This document shows, piece after piece, positions 36,236-45,137 of a stretch of 45,824 bases of DNA. Every line of letters starts with the position of its first letter. The first letter of the stretch is position 1. The notes under the pieces were generated by a model, which was given only the letters and a program-made list of their open reading frames with translations, searched no databases and had not been told where the DNA came from. The stretch lies in the NCBI RefSeq assembly GCF_000828085.3, contig NZ_JXCA02000027.1, forward strand, positions 155,436 through 201,259, read 5' to 3'. The translations under genes and the position numbers were made by a program. Origin of the DNA: Scytonema tolypothrichoides VB-61278 (GTDB lineage: Bacteria > Cyanobacteriota > Cyanobacteriia > Cyanobacteriales > Nostocaceae).

Positions 36236-36937
36236 TTAAACCGCATGCTCTTTGGATGGGGAAAGACCTATGTTTGAGAAAAGCCGCCCTACTAACTCAG
36301 CACGAGATGAAACTTCAAGCTTTCGGAACATCCGTTTTAAGGCTTGCTTAACAGAATTTTCTGTAATCCAAAGGGCAGCACCGATTTCAGCACTTGTTAG
36401 TCCTTGTGCCACTAGTTCAGCAATTTGAATTTCACGCGGCGTTAAACGATTAATATTGGAAGAATTGAATCCTTTCGGTTGCGACTGTATTCTTTCTAAC
36501 CAGGTGGACAGATGCAAGCAAAGAGCACATACGTCAGCTAGATCCCGATTATTAAAAGCAGGAGTGCCTCGAACGCGGGTGAAGCCAACCCCGCCAACAA
36601 GATGACCTTTTGTGACAATCGGTCCAACCATCACATGTCCATGATCAGAACGCGGGCAAATCATCTTCCATGCCCCAGGAGGTAAGAGCAATTCTTCGTG
36701 AACGGGGGCATGTTGCTCAACCAAGTAGCGCAAAACTGGATTATGTTCTATAGATAAAGCTAATTTCAGGATGGCTGGAAGATTGGGATTGACAGGGGGA
36801 AGTTGATTAAAGAAAAAAAGCCTGCAACGATGGGCAGCAAAGTGTTCGCCAACTTTAACCATGACGTGCTGTCGTAGTTCTTCTTCGTCACCAGCTTGAG
36901 CGATCGCCCCAAATAAAGACTGCAAAGAATTCCCCAT
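36236..36937 (-). CDS. LuxR-type transcriptional regulator (paralogue 1)
   Basis: 233 residues. The N-terminal part (1-150) is GAF-like or autoinducer-binding-like, with HGHVMVGPIVTKGHLVGGVGFTRVRG and LADVCALCLHLSTWLE. The C-terminal LuxR helix-turn-helix is LTPREIQIAELVAQGLTSAEIGAALWITENSVKQALKRMFRKLEV. It is a close architectural twin of the gene at 37083, sharing VGPxxxxGxLxGGxxFxRGxGxPxF and VKQALKRxFRKL. It lacks a receiver domain, so it likely binds a ligand or protein. A 73-bp element shared with the DUF6220 upstream region begins 11 bp from its start codon (36948-37020). Confidence 0.88.
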   Translation of the reverse strand: MGNSLQSLFGAIAQAGDEEELRQHVMVKVGEHFAAHRCRLFFFNQLPPVNPNLPAILKLALSIEHNPVLRYLVEQHAPVHEELLLPPGAWKMICPRSDHGHVMVGPIVTKGHLVGGVGFTRVRGTPAFNNRDLADVCALCLHLSTWLERIQSQPKGFNSSNINRLTPREIQIAELVAQGLTSAEIGAALWITENSVKQALKRMFRKLEVSSRAELVGRLFSNIGLSPSKEHAV

Positions 36938-37082: not shown

Positions 37083-37799
37083 TTAAGGATACTTGTACAA
37101 GTTCGTGAGGTCTTTCAATTTAGCAACCATCTCAGTACGGGCCGAAACATTAAGTTTACGAAATATGCGCTTGAGTGCTTGCTTTACACTTTCGCGGCTG
37201 ATGCTCAGTTTAATACCAATTTCTCGGTTACTCAAACCATGAGCAACCAGTTCCACAATTTCCAATTCACGTTTGGTTAAACAATCACAGGATAAATTTG
37301 TTACCAATGCAGGAATTTGCAACATTGACAAACGAGCGGATAAATGCAGACAGAGGATACTCAGACGAAATAAATCACCATCACAAAAGGGTGGGAAACC
37401 ACTTCCACGCATGAAATAAATTCCGCCAATTAGCCGCCCATTCCCCAGCAATGGACCAACCATACCATGTTCAATTCCATACCTTCGGAAAAGATATTGG
37501 TAGATGTTACTTTGCTTCCAGGCTGCGGGAGTTTGGATGGACAAATTGTGGGCGGGAATCTGTTGCTGGATCATGAACTGACTGACTGGATCTCCATCTG
37601 GTCCAACCTCTCGATAATGAGCTCGAAACGTATCAGGTAGCCCATACAAATCAGATTCTTTAATTTGTAAGTGATGATCCAACAGATCTAACCCCCAAGC
37701 ATCAGCATCAACCAGTTGACTTGCACTATCCATAAAACAGGAACGCAATTGGGCTTCAGTTTGGGCACTCGCAAATCGTTGCACAACAGAAAACTGCAT
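37083..37799 (-). CDS. LuxR-type transcriptional regulator (paralogue 2)
   Basis: 238 residues. The N-terminal GAF-like part contains IEHGMVGPLLGNGRLIGGIYFMRGSGFPPF, and the C-terminal helix-turn-helix is LTKRELEIVELVAHGLSNREIGIKLSISRESVKQALKRIFRKLNVSARTEM. It shares length, layout and several motifs with its neighbour at 36236, so the two are tandem duplicates that have diverged strongly. Its start is 78 bp from the divergent MAPEG gene, so a common control region is likely there. Confidence 0.88.
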   Translation of the reverse strand: MQFSVVQRFASAQTEAQLRSCFMDSASQLVDADAWGLDLLDHHLQIKESDLYGLPDTFRAHYREVGPDGDPVSQFMIQQQIPAHNLSIQTPAAWKQSNIYQYLFRRYGIEHGMVGPLLGNGRLIGGIYFMRGSGFPPFCDGDLFRLSILCLHLSARLSMLQIPALVTNLSCDCLTKRELEIVELVAHGLSNREIGIKLSISRESVKQALKRIFRKLNVSARTEMVAKLKDLTNLYKYP

Positions 37800-39205: not shown

Positions 39206-39235
39206 TTGACGAGGCATTGGGTAAGTTATTATTAA
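39206..39235 (+). promoter_or_regulatory. Candidate promoter of tetR-devB
   Basis: TTGACG at 39206-39211 as -35 and TATTAA at 39230-39235 as -10, with an 18-bp spacer. Transcription would start at about 39242, inside the palindromic candidate operator at 39236-39253. The upstream stretch 39040-39180 has GC-rich segments that look like remains of a mobile element but nothing firm. Confidence 0.5.
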
Positions 39236-39253
39236 ATAACGGTTGCCCGATAT
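39236..39253. promoter_or_regulatory. Candidate TetR operator, copy 1
   Basis: ATAACGGTTGCCCGATAT, an imperfect palindrome of the form ATAnCGGnnnnCCGnTAT (six of nine base pairs symmetric). It lies between the -10 box and the tetR start codon, where binding would block transcription. An identical 18-bp copy lies at 41023-41040 between devB and devC. The TetR gene is the obvious candidate binder. Confidence 0.7.
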
Positions 39254-39265
39254 AATAAAATAGAA

Positions 39266-39856
39266 ATGCCCAAGATTGTAAATCACGAGCAATATCGCAA
39301 AGAGTTGCTCTACAAGTGCTTTGACTTGTTTGCGGAGAAAGGATACGCCTCGATCACAACTCGACAGATTGCTAAGGAGTTGGGCGTATCCACCGGAACA
39401 CTCTATTACTACTTCCCGCGTAAGGAGGACATGTTTGAACAACTGGTTGAGGAAACGAGTCAGGAGTATCTGCAGATCTTTGCTAACGAATTGAAAGATG
39501 GACAAACACTATCAGAGCGATTTGAGGCGCTAGCCAACTTCGCACTCAGATACGAAGACCGCCTGATAAAGGAAATCTGTATGATGGTTGATTTCTGTCA
39601 GCAGCAAGGATCCAATGCAATCCGCGAGAATCAGGCATTAAGGCGAATCGAGAGACAAGCTAAGCAATCGATCACTGAATTTTTTGGCATCTGCGATCCA
39701 GCTGTAGTTGATTTTATCATGACTCAAGTGCAGGGCTTAATGCTGAGGCGATTGTCAGGGGATGATGTTTCGATCGCCGAACAAATCGTTTTACTAGGAA
39801 AGATGTTGATGACTTATCTAGAAAAATCAAGACCCCTACAATGCTGCAACGACTAA
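39266..39856 (+). CDS. TetR family regulator of the Dev-type exporter cluster
   Basis: 196 residues. The DNA-binding helix-turn-helix is YKCFDLFAEKGYASITTRQIAKELGVSTGTLYYYFPRKEDMFEQL (16-60), a near-consensus TetR domain. The C-terminal half is helical and ends LRRLSGDDVSIAEQIVLLGKML. The stop codon lies 16 bp inside the start of devB, so it is the first gene of the exporter transcript and likely autoregulated through the palindrome at 39236-39253. The inducer is unknown; exporter substrates or their precursors are the usual ligands. Confidence 0.9.
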   Translation: MPKIVNHEQYRKELLYKCFDLFAEKGYASITTRQIAKELGVSTGTLYYYFPRKEDMFEQLVEETSQEYLQIFANELKDGQTLSERFEALANFALRYEDRLIKEICMMVDFCQQQGSNAIRENQALRRIERQAKQSITEFFGICDPAVVDFIMTQVQGLMLRRLSGDDVSIAEQIVLLGKMLMTYLEKSRPLQCCND

Positions 39857-41019
39857 AACCTCTTAATCGGTGGATGATTGCGCTCTATGTTGTAGGGATT
39901 GCGATCGCGGGTGGCTCACTCTACTACAGCTTTTCTCGGTTTGGACAAAAGCCTGCTGAACCTGTAGCATCGGTACCCGTTAATCAACCAATCACAGCTC
40001 TTGGACGGCTAGAACCTGCATCAGAAGTGGTGCGAGTGGCTGCTGCGACGACGCTAAACAATGATCGGGTTGCAAAACTGTTAGTTAAGCGGGGCGATCG
40101 CGTGAAGGCAAATCAAGAGATTGCAATTTTGGAGAGCCGCAACCGCCTACAAACAGCTTTACTTGAGGCACAGGAACGAGTCAGGGCAGCTCAAGCAAAA
40201 CTCTTGCAAGTCAAAGCAGGGGCAAAATCTGGAGAGATTGCAGCTCAGAAAGCGGAAATTGCTCGTCTTGAAGAAGAGTTACAGGGTGAAATTGTCACTC
40301 AAGCAGCTACCATTACCCGTCGTCAATCCGAGGTTAATGTCGCACTCTCAGAATACAACCGCTATCTAGCATTGTATCGAGAGGGTGCTTTCTCGGCTTC
40401 CAACCTCGATCAAAAACGGCTTACTTTAGAAACAGCCCAGGCACAACTGAGCGAAGTCAAAGCGAATCGGAATCGTACTGCTGACACGTTACGTGCCCAA
40501 ATCAATCGAGCCAAAGCGACACTCAACCAGATTGCCGAAGTTCGCCCTGTGGATGTTCAGGTCGCACAAACGGAGGTAGACCAAGCAATTGCAGCAGTTA
40601 AACGAGCTAAAGCTGAGTTGCAGGAAGCAGGCATCCGCGCACCGATCACAGGACAAGTTTTAGAAGTTTACACAAAACCAGGTGAGGCGATCGCTGACAA
40701 AGGAATTGTTGACTTAGGAAAAACTGACCAGATGGAAGTGGTTGCAGAAGTTTACCAAAGCGATATTGGCAAGATTCGCACCGGTCAATCAGCCGTCATC
40801 ACTGGCGAGGCATTTCCCGGAGAACTGCGGGGAACGGTTCGCCTGGTTGGATTGCAAGTCAGCAAGCAAGAAGTCTTCAGCAAAGAACCTGGAGAGAACC
40901 TTGATCGCCGCGTCGTTGAAGTGAGAATTCGCCTCAATTCCAAGGATAGTCAACAAGTGGCAAGCCTGACCAACTTGCAGGTACAGGTAGCAATTCAACC
41001 GGAAGTGAGTTTGAACTAA
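39841..41019 (+). CDS. devB: DevB-type membrane fusion protein of an ABC exporter
   Basis: 392 residues. A single N-terminal membrane anchor (WMIALYVVGIAIAGGSLYYS, 12-31), then the biotinyl-lipoyl-like half LGRLEPASEVVRVAA and VKRGDRVKANQEIAILE, a long coiled coil (about 100-240, rich in Ala, Glu, Arg), the second half ELQEAGIRAPITGQVLEVYTKPGEAI, and a beta-barrel VVAEVYQSDIGKIRTGQSAVIT. This is the HlyD-like DevB family, which bridges the DevCA inner-membrane pump to the outer-membrane TolC homologue. In Anabaena DevBCA exports heterocyst glycolipids; paralogues exist whose substrates are unknown. Overlaps the tetR 3' end by 16 bp. Confidence 0.92.
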   Translation: MLQRLKPLNRWMIALYVVGIAIAGGSLYYSFSRFGQKPAEPVASVPVNQPITALGRLEPASEVVRVAAATTLNNDRVAKLLVKRGDRVKANQEIAILESRNRLQTALLEAQERVRAAQAKLLQVKAGAKSGEIAAQKAEIARLEEELQGEIVTQAATITRRQSEVNVALSEYNRYLALYREGAFSASNLDQKRLTLETAQAQLSEVKANRNRTADTLRAQINRAKATLNQIAEVRPVDVQVAQTEVDQAIAAVKRAKAELQEAGIRAPITGQVLEVYTKPGEAIADKGIVDLGKTDQMEVVAEVYQSDIGKIRTGQSAVITGEAFPGELRGTVRLVGLQVSKQEVFSKEPGENLDRRVVEVRIRLNSKDSQQVASLTNLQVQVAIQPEVSLN

Positions 41020-41022
41020 AAC

Positions 41023-41040
41023 ATAACGGTTGCCCGATAT
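41023..41040. promoter_or_regulatory. Candidate TetR operator, copy 2
   Basis: ATAACGGTTGCCCGATAT, identical to copy 1, three bases after the devB stop and 92 bp before the devC start. Its position suggests a second controlled promoter for devC or a roadblock in the operon; no clear promoter boxes are seen beside it. Confidence 0.65.
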
Positions 41041-41132
41041 CAAGAATCTTAGACTGCTTTAGTTTCTATTGAAACGTACTAGGAAATTAATTTCACCGTT
41101 GTCTTTCTCTGACGTGATACTCCTTCCAAACT

Positions 41133-42299
41133 ATGCTACGCAAACTATTTCGCAAAACACCCTTAGCATGGCTTCAGGTGAAGCGAGAAAAAACCCGCCT
41201 CTTTGTTGCCTTGGCTGGAATTGGATTCGCCGATATCCTGATGTTTTTTCAACTGGGAATGATGGAGTCTGCTTATGTTGCTGCTACAGGGATGCACTAC
41301 AGACTTCGGGGGGACTTATTTCTGATTAATTCTGTGTCTGATAACGTGCAAACTATCAAACCCTTCTCGCGTTCTAGGCTGTTTCAGACAGCGGGTACAG
41401 ATGGAGTCGCTTCCATCAACTCCCTCTATCTAGGAATCGGAAGATGGCGTAATCCTACTAATCGGACATTTTGGCAAGTACAGATCTATGGTCTCAATCC
41501 CAGTAACCCAGCGATGGATGTACCAGATGCGACACACCAATTCAACAAACTCAAAATGTTGAATTATGTGCTTTATGATCAGGCGGCGCGACCCGATTTG
41601 GGTAATGTTGCTGAACAACTTCAGCAATCTAAACTGCTTTCAGCCCAACTTAATGACTTACAAATTAAAGTCACTGGTGTCTTCACAATGGGAGCCTCAT
41701 TCTCGGCTGATGGCAATCTCATTGTGAGTGACTCTACTTTTTTGCGTCTGTTTTCAGAACGTCAATCGAATGATATTGATGTTGGTCTGATCACGTTAAA
41801 ACCGAATGCCAACATTAAGCAAGTGCAAGCAAATTTAAAAGCCAAATTGCCTAATGATGTGCTGATTCTAACAAAAGAAGAATTTATACAACGGGAGAGA
41901 AACTATTGGAGTCAAGTCAGTCCTATCGGCGTTATCTTTGGATTCGGAACTGTCGTAGGGTTTTTGGTCGGGACGGTGATTGTTTATCAGATTCTTTACT
42001 CTGATGTTTCGGATCACTTACCCGAATACGCGACGCTGAAAGCAATGGGGTATGGCGATCGCTTCTTGGTTGGAATTTTGCTTCAAGAGGCTTTGATTCT
42101 AGCAATTTTGGGCTTTATTCCTGGATTTGCAATTTCACTTGGGCTTTACGGGCTAGTTGCACAAGCAACGCTACTTCCCGTCAAAATGTCAGTAGACCGT
42201 CTCGTACTGGTGCTGTCTTTGACTCTTGTGATGTGTATTGCATCGGGGGCGATCGCAATGCGTAAATTACAGTCTGCCGATCCCGCTGATATTTTCTGA
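41133..42299 (+). CDS. devC: DevC-type ABC exporter permease
   Basis: 388 residues. An N-terminal membrane helix (TRLFVALAGIGFADILMFFQLGMM, 21-44), a large extracytoplasmic domain (45-260, VFTMGASFSADGNLIVSDSTFLRLF), and three C-terminal helices (VIFGFGTVVGFLVGTVIVYQIL, FLVGILLQEALILAILGFIPGF, LVLVLSLTLVMCIASGAIAM) in the FtsX/MacB-like arrangement. The DevC signature PLAWLQVKREKTRL is at the start. The gene follows devB by 113 bp and precedes a short GNAT gene. Its ATPase DevA lies 1.36 kb further on, separated by two acetyltransferase genes. Confidence 0.92.
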   Translation: MLRKLFRKTPLAWLQVKREKTRLFVALAGIGFADILMFFQLGMMESAYVAATGMHYRLRGDLFLINSVSDNVQTIKPFSRSRLFQTAGTDGVASINSLYLGIGRWRNPTNRTFWQVQIYGLNPSNPAMDVPDATHQFNKLKMLNYVLYDQAARPDLGNVAEQLQQSKLLSAQLNDLQIKVTGVFTMGASFSADGNLIVSDSTFLRLFSERQSNDIDVGLITLKPNANIKQVQANLKAKLPNDVLILTKEEFIQRERNYWSQVSPIGVIFGFGTVVGFLVGTVIVYQILYSDVSDHLPEYATLKAMGYGDRFLVGILLQEALILAILGFIPGFAISLGLYGLVAQATLLPVKMSVDRLVLVLSLTLVMCIASGAIAMRKLQSADPADIF

Positions 42300-42338: not shown

Positions 42339-42671
42339 GTGGAAATTAAACGAAACTCTAAAAACGCAGAAGGTGTTCGCCTCTCGATTGAACACAACGG
42401 TATCGAACTCGCCCATGCTTTTCTATACGTGATGCACAATGATTTACATCATGAGCCTTTTGGGCTGATGGAAGATGTTTTTGTGGATGAAAATTCTCGG
42501 GGAAAAGGATACGGGACTCAGCTAGTCAAGAAGGTTATTGAAATTGCACGGGAATATCGTTGTTACAAGTTAATTGCGACCTGCAGAAACTCTAAACCAA
42601 AGGTACACCAATTGTATCAGCGCCTGGGTTTTGAGGAGCATGGTGTTGAGTTCAGAATCAATCTTTTGTAA
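42339..42671 (+). CDS. GNAT family N-acetyltransferase, short
   Basis: 110 residues from a GTG start at 42339. The acetyl-CoA site is MEDVFVDENSRGKGYGTQLVKKVIEIAREY (RGKGYG), and the C-terminal QLYQRLGFEEHG helix-strand is typical. At 110 residues the protein is smaller than most GNATs, yet the central core is intact. It follows devC by 39 bp. Acetylation of the exported lipid, of a competing protein or of an unrelated metabolite are all possible; its place between devC and devA suggests cotranscription with the exporter. Confidence 0.82.
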   Translation: MEIKRNSKNAEGVRLSIEHNGIELAHAFLYVMHNDLHHEPFGLMEDVFVDENSRGKGYGTQLVKKVIEIAREYRCYKLIATCRNSKPKVHQLYQRLGFEEHGVEFRINLL

Positions 42672-42897: not shown

Positions 42898-43461
42898 ATG
42901 AGTGAAAATTTTTTCTTGCCTTCTTTCCCAAAATTAGAAACCGAACGCCTTCTTCTTCGTAAGGAAACTCCAGAAGATGCTAAAGCTGTCTTTGCTCTGT
43001 TTTCTGACCCAGCAGTAACCCAGTTTCATGACCTTGATACCTTCACTGATATTGAGGAAGCATTACAACTGATTAAGCGACGGACAAAACGATTTGAGAG
43101 TGGGAGTGGAATACGATGGGGAATTGTTCGTAAACAAGATAATATTTTGATTGGTTCCTGTGGCTTTACGTGGAATAAGCAGACGCATAGTGCTGAGGTC
43201 GGCTACGAACTTGCTAGTTCCTTTTGGAGACAAGGAATTATGACTGAGGCGTTGCGTGCTATTTTGCAATTTGGGTTTGAAACAATAGGCTTACGCTTCG
43301 TGATTGCGGGGGTTATGTTAGACAACATTGCTTCTAAAAAGTTGTTAGAAAATTTAGGTTTTCAGAGCCCAAATATTCTAAAACAGCATGGTTTTTGGAA
43401 GGGCAAGTATCACGATTTAGAGGAATATGTTCTCACAAAAACTACGATAAATACATTTTAG
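42898..43461 (+). CDS. GNAT acetyltransferase, RimJ/RimL type
   Basis: 187 residues. The start ETERLLLRKETPEDAKAVFALFSDPAV is the common RimJ/RimL N-terminus; the acetyl-CoA region is AEVGYELASSFWRQGIMTEALRAILQFGFETIG (Arg-x-Gly), followed by GVMLDNIASKKLLENLGFQ. Family members acetylate ribosomal proteins or small amines and antibiotics. It lies 226 bp after the short GNAT gene and 193 bp before devA. A perfect 28-bp palindrome sits in that second spacer. Confidence 0.88.
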   Translation: MSENFFLPSFPKLETERLLLRKETPEDAKAVFALFSDPAVTQFHDLDTFTDIEEALQLIKRRTKRFESGSGIRWGIVRKQDNILIGSCGFTWNKQTHSAEVGYELASSFWRQGIMTEALRAILQFGFETIGLRFVIAGVMLDNIASKKLLENLGFQSPNILKQHGFWKGKYHDLEEYVLTKTTINTF

Positions 43462-43654: not shown

Positions 43655-44359
43655 ATGACTGAACCTGTTATTTCTGTTAAACACCTGAATCACTACTTTG
43701 GTGAACGAGAACTGCGAAAACAAGCGTTATTTGACATTAATCTCGACATCTATCCAGGAGAAATTATTATCATGACTGGACCGTCGGGGTCTGGTAAAAC
43801 AACTTTGCTAACGCTTATGGGAGGCTTGCGTTCTGCACAAGAAGGTAGCCTCAAAATTCTGGGGCAAGAAATGAATAAAGCTAATAAGAAAGAAATGATG
43901 CAGGTGCGACAGCGAATTGGCTATATTTTCCAAGCACACAATTTGTTGACTTTCCTAACAGCTAAGCAAAATGTACGAATGTCTCTAGAGCTACATGACG
44001 AGTATCTAGACAAAAATATGGATAAGATAGCTACCGATATTCTCAATACAGTTGGTTTGGGAAATCGTGTCGATTACTACGCTGATAATTTGTCTGGAGG
44101 ACAAAAGCAGCGAGTGGCTATCGCCCGTGCTTTGGTGAGTCATCCCAAAATTGTTCTAGCAGACGAACCCACCGCAGCATTGGATAAAAAATCAGGTCGA
44201 GATGTGGTGGAACTGATGCAGAAATTGGCAAAAGAACAGGGCTGTACGATTTTGCTTGTCACGCACGATAATCGTATTTTGGATATTGCAGATCGTATTG
44301 TTTATATGGAAGACGGTCGCTTGGCAAATCAGCCGGATGCTGTTGCATTAGTGGAGTAG
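43655..44359 (+). CDS. devA: DevA-type ABC exporter ATP-binding protein
   Basis: 234 residues. Walker A is GPSGSGKTT, Q-loop FQAHNLL, signature LSGGQKQRVAIARAL, Walker B IVLADEPTAALD, H-switch LLVTHDN. The start VISVKHLNHYFGERELRKQALFDINLDIYPGE is typical of DevA. It should form a dimer that drives the DevC permease with DevB as the periplasmic adaptor. It is 1.36 kb from devC, with two GNAT genes and a palindrome between, which departs from the usual contiguous devBCA order. Convergent with the next gene, with 13 bp between the stops. Confidence 0.93.
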   Translation: MTEPVISVKHLNHYFGERELRKQALFDINLDIYPGEIIIMTGPSGSGKTTLLTLMGGLRSAQEGSLKILGQEMNKANKKEMMQVRQRIGYIFQAHNLLTFLTAKQNVRMSLELHDEYLDKNMDKIATDILNTVGLGNRVDYYADNLSGGQKQRVAIARALVSHPKIVLADEPTAALDKKSGRDVVELMQKLAKEQGCTILLVTHDNRILDIADRIVYMEDGRLANQPDAVALVE

Positions 44360-44372
44360 TGGTTCACTCAGC

Positions 44373-45137
44373 TTAGGACACCGCCAAATGACCCACATCA
44401 GATGGACTGAGGTGAGAGTGTACAACATCACCGTCACGAAACCAAACTACACGCTGTGTTTGACGAGCAACTTCTGGCTCATGGGTTACCATCACAACAG
44501 TAATACCACTAGCATTCAGTTCACCAAAGATATCTAAAACTTCTTGGGTTGTGCGGGAGTCGAGTGCGCCTGTCGGTTCATCGGCGAGGAGTAAGACTGG
44601 ACGGTTAACAATAGCACGGGCTATAGCCACCCGTTGCTGCTGTCCTCCAGACAGTTGAGTTGGTTTATTATTCAGACGCTTTTCTAAGCCTACTCGCTTG
44701 AGAGCTTCTGCTGCTCTATCACGGCGTTCCTTAGTGTTCACACCAGCATATATCATGGGCAACATGACATTTTCTAATGCTGTCAGCTGAGATAAAAGGT
44801 GGAATTGTTGGAATACAAATCCCAGTTTTTTATTACGAATTTCTGCTAAAGCTGTATCTTCCATTTGGGCGACATCAAGCTTATCCAGGTAATAATGTCC
44901 GGAAGTGGGGCGATCCAAGCAACCAATGATATTCATTGCCGTAGATTTACCAGAACCAGACGGTCCCATGATTGAACAGTATTCACCCTCCTCTATAGTG
45001 AGATTAACACCGTTGAGTGCCCGCACTTCAGCTTCGCCACTACCGTAAACTTTAAAAATATCTTCTAACCGAATAATGACTGGTTGATTTCCCGGATTGG
45101 GAACGCGCGAGTCAGTCAGTAATTGAGTATTTGCCAT
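44373..45137 (-). CDS. MacB/LolD-type ABC transporter ATP-binding protein
   Basis: 254 residues. Walker A is GPSGSGKST, signature LSGGQQQRVAIARAIV, Walker B LLLADEPTGALD, and LRALNGVNLTIEEGEYCSIMGPSGSGKST is typical of the MacB/LolD group. An N-terminal extension of about 20 residues precedes the domain. These ATPases power lipoprotein extraction or small-molecule export with an FtsX-like permease. No such permease is adjacent: downstream is the convergent devA and upstream is an IS630 element. Its partner may have been separated by the insertion. Confidence 0.9.
   Translation of the reverse strand: MANTQLLTDSRVPNPGNQPVIIRLEDIFKVYGSGEAEVRALNGVNLTIEEGEYCSIMGPSGSGKSTAMNIIGCLDRPTSGHYYLDKLDVAQMEDTALAEIRNKKLGFVFQQFHLLSQLTALENVMLPMIYAGVNTKERRDRAAEALKRVGLEKRLNNKPTQLSGGQQQRVAIARAIVNRPVLLLADEPTGALDSRTTQEVLDIFGELNASGITVVMVTHEPEVARQTQRVVWFRDGDVVHSHLSPSDVGHLAVS

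Follow-up and report, generated by a model that had tools for sequence, protein, structure and literature searches.

A palindromic operator candidate placed twice, at the tetR promoter and behind devB, in a cyanobacterial exporter cluster

Repressors of the QacR, TetR and AcrR type that are encoded beside exporters have a palindromic operator at their own promoter, at that of the adjacent exporter, or at both, and autorepressed TetR-exporter units are common. A cluster of Scytonema tolypothrichoides VB-61278 raises the question of what a second operator might do where no promoter is apparent. In this cluster the same 18-mer, ATAACGGTTGCCCGATAT, can be read twice on the plus strand, at 39236-39253 (site 1), in the promoter region of tetR, and at 41023-41040 (site 2), behind the neighboring gene devB; positions are those of the window, by which we mean the whole stretch of 45,824 nucleotides that was analyzed. 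The likely answer, drawn from sequence comparison, is that both copies are operators of the cluster's own TetR protein, with site 1 blocking the initiation of transcription and site 2 acting as a roadblock. TetR autorepression next to an exporter is ordinary; a conserved, seemingly promoterless operator within the operon is the interesting part. The features of the cluster are these:

39206-39235, plus strand: sigma-70-type promoter of tetR-devB, with TTGACG at 39206-39211, 18 nt, and TATTAA at 39230-39235
39227-39232, plus strand: alternative -10 box of the tetR promoter, TATTAT, with a spacer of 15
39236-39253, plus strand: site 1, the operator ATAACGGTTGCCCGATAT over the expected transcription start, a conserved palindrome with putative binding
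39266-39856, plus strand: tetR, with TetR_N domain PF00440
39841-41019, plus strand: devB, ABC exporter membrane fusion protein (TIGR02971)
41023-41040, plus strand: site 2, the identical second operator, 3 nt past the devB stop and without a detectable sigma-70 promoter
41041-41132, plus strand: 92-nt gap ahead of devC, the place of a DUF2834 gene in loci L033 and L034
41133-42299, plus strand: devC, ABC exporter permease (TIGR01185)
42339-42671, plus strand: GNAT acetyltransferase-like gene between devC and devA, with a GTG start
42898-43461, plus strand: second GNAT acetyltransferase-like gene
43655-44359, plus strand: devA, ABC exporter ATPase (TIGR02982)

As in the DevBCA exporters of cyanobacteria, all three subunits are encoded together, and each scores above its curated cut-off: DevB with 345.6 bits against TIGR02971 (cut-off 129), DevC with 468.3 bits against TIGR01185 (cut-off 290.35), and DevA with 375.6 bits against TIGR02982 (cut-off 295.8). 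Unlike in those exporters, devA is split from devC by the two GNAT genes, and tetR leads the cluster, the six genes all lying on the plus strand. Because the start of devB overlaps the end of tetR by 16 nt, the two genes are very likely carried on one transcript. The devB stop codon occupies 41017-41019, and 92 nt separate the end of site 2 from the devC ATG at 41133. Read by eye, the same part of the window holds a second ABC-type ATPase ORF (44373-45137), on the minus strand and convergent with devA, with 35% identity to DevA; further upstream, two adjoining minus-strand ORFs with similar LuxR-type C-termini (36236-36937 and 37083-37799) appear by eye to be a tandem pair.

A preliminary description of this DNA had pointed out the two identical 18-mers, called them palindromic, and placed the first directly behind a -10 box and ahead of tetR and the second just past the devB stop, and in these points it was correct: site 1 starts right after TATTAA and leaves 12 nt to the tetR ATG, 3 nt separate the devB stop codon from site 2, and in ATAnCGGnnnnCCGnTAT, read directly, six of the nine symmetric pairs match. 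The repeat extends over exactly 18 nt, with a differing flanking base at either end, and no third copy with up to three mismatches was found on either strand of the window. In shuffled versions of the window, the 18-mer arose with a mean of 0.02 copies per shuffle and never twice in 100 shuffles. Across the whole genome (G000, 7.89 Mb), matches with up to two mismatches fall in these two places only, and the control pattern, read backward, gives one match. When T or C is accepted at a mid-position, one of 386 genomes of the phylum contains the 18-mer, namely the source genome (G069 and G081 were not among the entries). A 14-mer core is present in 8 of 281 genomes of the order; in G000, G069 and G081 it lies at tetR-devB, and in the other five it occupies a single place each, within other long ORFs. 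The identity of the window's two copies could also come from chance or from a recent duplication without function, but the probability of this is negligible, as L033 and L034 retain the two copies and diverged forms occur in many loci of the order.

Those loci were collected through the TetR protein: of 291 genomes of the order, 86 have a member of its family, which gives 89 places in total, the source genome contributing three. The locus set thus comprises the window and 88 other places, some truncated at contig ends; for a second set we took the best 80 of 463 named relatives in another collection, whose species are partly those of the first. For the conservation count at site 1 we used ATAnCGnnnnnnCGnTAT, a relaxed form of the pattern in the preliminary description. 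Within the 320 nt that precede tetR, 77 of the 89 loci have it with at most one mismatch and a further 11 with two; L070, with three, has no good site 1. The palindrome, again with up to one mismatch, appeared in 7 of 1303 control stretches (320 nt each, taken from these loci with the tetR upstream, tetR-end and devB-devC regions excluded), and Markov-resampled upstream regions yielded a mean of 1.0 of 89 and a maximum of 3 over 20 resamplings. In the second set, the top-scoring site had at most one mismatch in 63 of the best 80 relatives. Symmetrizing the consensus operator gives ATATCGAACGTTCGATAT, which is perfectly palindromic. Across the genome the loose form ATAnCGnnnnnnCGnTAT shows no enrichment, matching 130 places with up to one mismatch vs 168 for the backward control, so nothing points to a large regulon.

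In the window TTGACG-18-TATTAA stands directly upstream of site 1, and we infer a transcription start at about 39242, within the operator. Many loci show a TTGACA-like box, 15-19 nt, a -10-like box and then site 1; in L033 and L034 a TTGACG/TTGACT-17-TACATT promoter is found at the same place as that of the window. In L090, L094, L098, L099, L106 and L109 the site is instead found between TTGACT and TATAAG/TATAAA, and both placements would fit repression of initiation. Scored in the site-1 geometry, 46% of 108 upstream sites have a promoter score above the shuffled 95th percentile. A consensus promoter scan returned 5 sites vs 6.7 in shuffles; its rules excluded the tetR promoter, TATTAA for want of the final T and TATTAT for its 15-nt spacer. 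Judged by its recurrence and its placement, the 18-mer is a genuine operator type. A different paired arrangement is seen in L063, L066, L071, L072, L074, L078-L080, L095 and L096, where tetR is preceded by two operators spaced by about 70 nt and devB is mostly followed by none.

What binds there is suggested by the protein encoded next to it. The preliminary description had a TetR gene leading the cluster, and the product of 39266-39856 indeed matches PF00440 with 58.6 bits (cut-off 24) and has both the N-terminal helix-turn-helix and the all-helical fold of the family. Its AF2 model (mean pLDDT 90.8) has nine helices in a TetR-like fold, with the helix-turn-helix and a large C-terminal domain, and the best Foldseek matches are TetR-family structures at TM of about 0.6-0.7, including QacR 3br2 and KstR-DNA complexes. 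Helix 43-49, which carries Y48, would by analogy be the recognition helix, and R52 lies directly ahead of helix 53-75 in the model. The operators of the window and of its two closest relatives, L033 (genome G081) and L034 (genome G069), have CGG/CCG arms at both sites, with one central base differing at site 2 of L034. Among 88 scored upstream sites, the combination of G7 and C12 (CGG/CCG) is seen at site 1 with all three R52 TetRs and with none of the 85 others, and the same pair is found at site 2 in the window, L033 and L034. Of 157 distinct TetRs, R52 is present in 4, Y48 in 9 and T32 in 27, and five of the nine Y48 proteins carry S52, so neither T32 nor Y48 alone tracks the CGG operator. 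The fourth R52 protein, from L121 (a Thermosynechococcaceae MAG), groups with the other three with a support of 1.0, and its site has a GCCCGAT right half and CGC on the left, that is, CCG on one side only.

Since the CGG/CCG variant goes with Y48 and R52 in three loci, both sites can be tied to the TetR of the window, which very probably binds them both. Because the R52 and operator changes are common to one clade, they count as one evolutionary event and the relation is a correlation, in which both operators appear to have changed along with the protein. That the motif might be absent beside orthologous tetR-devB loci, which the preliminary description had named as evidence against it, did not come about, given its presence at 77 of 89. 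The autorepression proposed there for site 1 is well supported by conservation, promoter placement and co-variation with the TetR recognition region, and with binding as the presumed step, a steric block of initiation with autoregulation is highly probable.

Could the repeat instead work as RNA, as a hairpin in a leader or an attenuator? It is a palindrome and often lies near start codons, and some of its variation has the form expected of RNA: among 35 distinct site-2 sequences, pair 6/13 reads G-U 15 times and A-C 4 times, and among 43 distinct site-1 sequences, pair 7/12 reads G-U 6 times and A-C once, a bias counted for the hairpin because RNA pairing would favor G-U. Pair 6/13 of site 1, however, is A-C in 14 of 43 sequences and G-U in none, and most sequences have A opposite A at pair 4/15, a mismatch seen in 33 of the 43 distinct sequences at site 1 and in 24 of the 35 at site 2. 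These mismatches, and the co-variation of the operator with the TetR recognition region, for which we prefer a DNA site, make a hairpin very improbable.

Site 2 was evaluated with a matrix trained on the site 1 sequences. This matrix gave 37 matches in 49,743 devB-devC positions vs 13 in 513,680 positions elsewhere, and ten of those 13 lie right after the tetR stop. Between -15 and +60 of the devB stop, a site is present in 29 of 74 loci (resampling mean 0.0). At least one downstream site, 50 sites altogether, was found in 45 of 89 loci; of 54 loci with more than 60 nt between devB and devC, 32 have a site there and 22 do not, and of 16 with a shorter gap one does. In the second set (best 80 of 463), 19 of the 55 loci with devB have a site between devB and devC. 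Counted over all 89 loci, two or more sites occur in 56, one in 32 and none in one. The system does not require site 2, since 32 loci have a single site and in 11 loci two sites both lie upstream of tetR. Going by this recurrence, site 2 is a conserved operator type. In relatives it precedes whichever gene comes after devB or tetR, and the genes behind downstream sites include devC and, from a Pfam check of six proteins, DUF2834, GNAT, P450, fatty acid hydroxylase and Coq4-like genes.

The preliminary description had read the pair as two control points. Two control points do hold, the second site being conserved as well, but the second is probably not a promoter, since no sigma-70 promoter is detectable there. 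Our matrices were E. coli-like, with shuffled flanks as control, and would miss other sigma classes. In the site-1 geometry, none of the 50 downstream sites exceeded the shuffled 95th percentile; with a differently built control the figures were 51% of 88 upstream vs 4% of 50 downstream sites. A test of the -10 box only gave 0% at site 2, yet it says little because site 1 itself reached only 11%. On sigma-70 signatures, a second promoter at site 2 was rejected. A weak or alternative-sigma promoter, with site 2 as its operator and an independent transcript of devC (in relatives, of DUF2834 or GNAT), is the form in which this explanation survives, and we regard it as unlikely. It draws on the ORFs of at least 85 aa that begin within 60 nt of 33 of the 50 downstream sites, on L087, L088, L101 and L103, where the site lies directly before a DUF2834 gene that is itself 776-847 nt past the devB stop, and on two of five geometries tested over both strands (0, 8, 0, 10 and 2% of 50 sites), the 8 and 10% lying slightly above the 5% expected by chance. 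The window's own TTCAAC-17-TAAAAC directly ahead of site 2 scores 3.2, near the random-flank median of 2.4.

A second operator can also act at a distance, as lac O2 does in raising operator occupancy by DNA looping. An auxiliary role of this kind, with site 2 raising the occupancy of site 1 through a loop of about 1.79 kb, would suit the nearly constant spacing between the two starts, which is 1787 nt in the window and 1784 nt in both L033 and L034. But other loci place site 2 hundreds of nucleotides further away, with genes inserted, and TetR-family proteins are normally dimers with a single DNA-binding face, so that looping is quite doubtful.

The paired reading, operator at the promoter and roadblock within the operon, would then work as follows. 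At site 1, a TetR dimer would sit over the start of transcription, downstream of the -10 box, and block initiation of a presumably single transcript, tetR-devB with devC to devA possibly following, so that TetR would repress itself and the exporter until a ligand releases it. At site 2, the same TetR, bound inside the operon to DNA without a promoter of its own, would stop any RNA polymerase that had leaked past site 1 before it reached the downstream genes, DUF2834 in relatives and devC-devA in the window. The position of site 2, between devB and devC, would suit a roadblock to RNA polymerase, a role to which we give an even chance. If the paired reading is true, the repressor and adaptor could be made at a low level, and the permease, ATPase and modifying enzymes could be kept tightly off. 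The operator departs slightly from symmetry, positions 4 and 15 being mostly A, and its orientation to transcription is mostly the same at both sites (window, L033-L120). A plain roadblock does not require this kept orientation, and a symmetric dimer would not account for it.

Like repressors of the QacR/TetR/AcrR type, the protein is a predicted helical helix-turn-helix repressor with a putative palindromic operator at a promoter; it differs in its operator sequence and in the extra operator within the operon without a detectable promoter. Among cyanobacterial TetR-family regulators, the available text of one report describes PfsR (sll1392) of Synechocystis PCC 6803 as binding its own promoter by EMSA and calls PrqR (slr0895) of the same strain an auto-repressor (PMC4092027). 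Both resemble the autoregulator proposed here, and, as far as that text extends, the operator palindrome, the devBCA linkage and the second in-operon site are given only here (PMC4092027). Roadblocks are described for LacI O3 autoregulation and the Kpn2I C-protein (PMC3711431, PMC6237814) and in LacI repressor roadblocks studied in E. coli (PMC4132739). There, as would hold at site 2, a DNA-bound regulator inside a transcription unit blocks the elongating polymerase (PMC3711431, PMC6237814, PMC4132739); the protein families are other ones, and in our case the roadblock is a proposed role. In the open literature, which leaves out most subscription journals, neither the four consensus core strings nor a description of the operator and its paired arrangement was found.

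The relatives show what else may have stood behind site 2. In L033 and L034 a DUF2834 gene lies between site 2 and devC, where the window has its 92-nt gap, and because DUF2834 follows site 2 at other loci too (e.g. L043, L047, L052), we infer that it was lost in the window. The source genome has a single DUF2834 homologue (E <= 0.001), behind the tetR paralogue on C6, one of two more TetRs of the family, on C4 and C6, with operators of the CGA type or related. The C4 paralogue (L037, G000:C4:273000-279800) heads a tetR-devB-devC arrangement with three operators, one ahead of tetR, one behind devB and one behind devC, this last directly ahead of a P450 gene; devA was not found in this stretch. 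The second paralogue (L045, G000:C6:227500-234500) has its own operator and the DUF2834 homologue downstream, and devB was not found in its stretch; by eye, the interval between tetR and the DUF2834 homologue may hold a devC remnant. The CGG variant could serve to avoid cross-talk with these paralogues. As a general reason for CGG this insulation is not supported, as the genomes of L033 and L034 have only one match each (E <= 1e-25).

An operator sequence can now be given for the TetR family of 86 of the 291 genomes of the order, and its local targets, DevBCA exporters and DUF2834, GNAT, P450 and fatty acid hydroxylase genes, can be read from sequence. That P450, GNAT and exporter genes share one operator type suggests the handling of small or toxic molecules. 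More tentatively, and on balance a little short of probable, many cyanobacteria would share one TetR family with an operator pair, of which the first stops initiation and the promoterless second stops elongation after a gene or two, and one clade would have shifted the specificity of both operators along with its TetR (Y48, R52). Both a natural elongation-roadblock design and a shift of TetR specificity thereby become testable. In addition to the GNAT pair of the window, at 42339-42671 and 42898-43461, another GNAT gene stands directly after site 2 in the L090 group.
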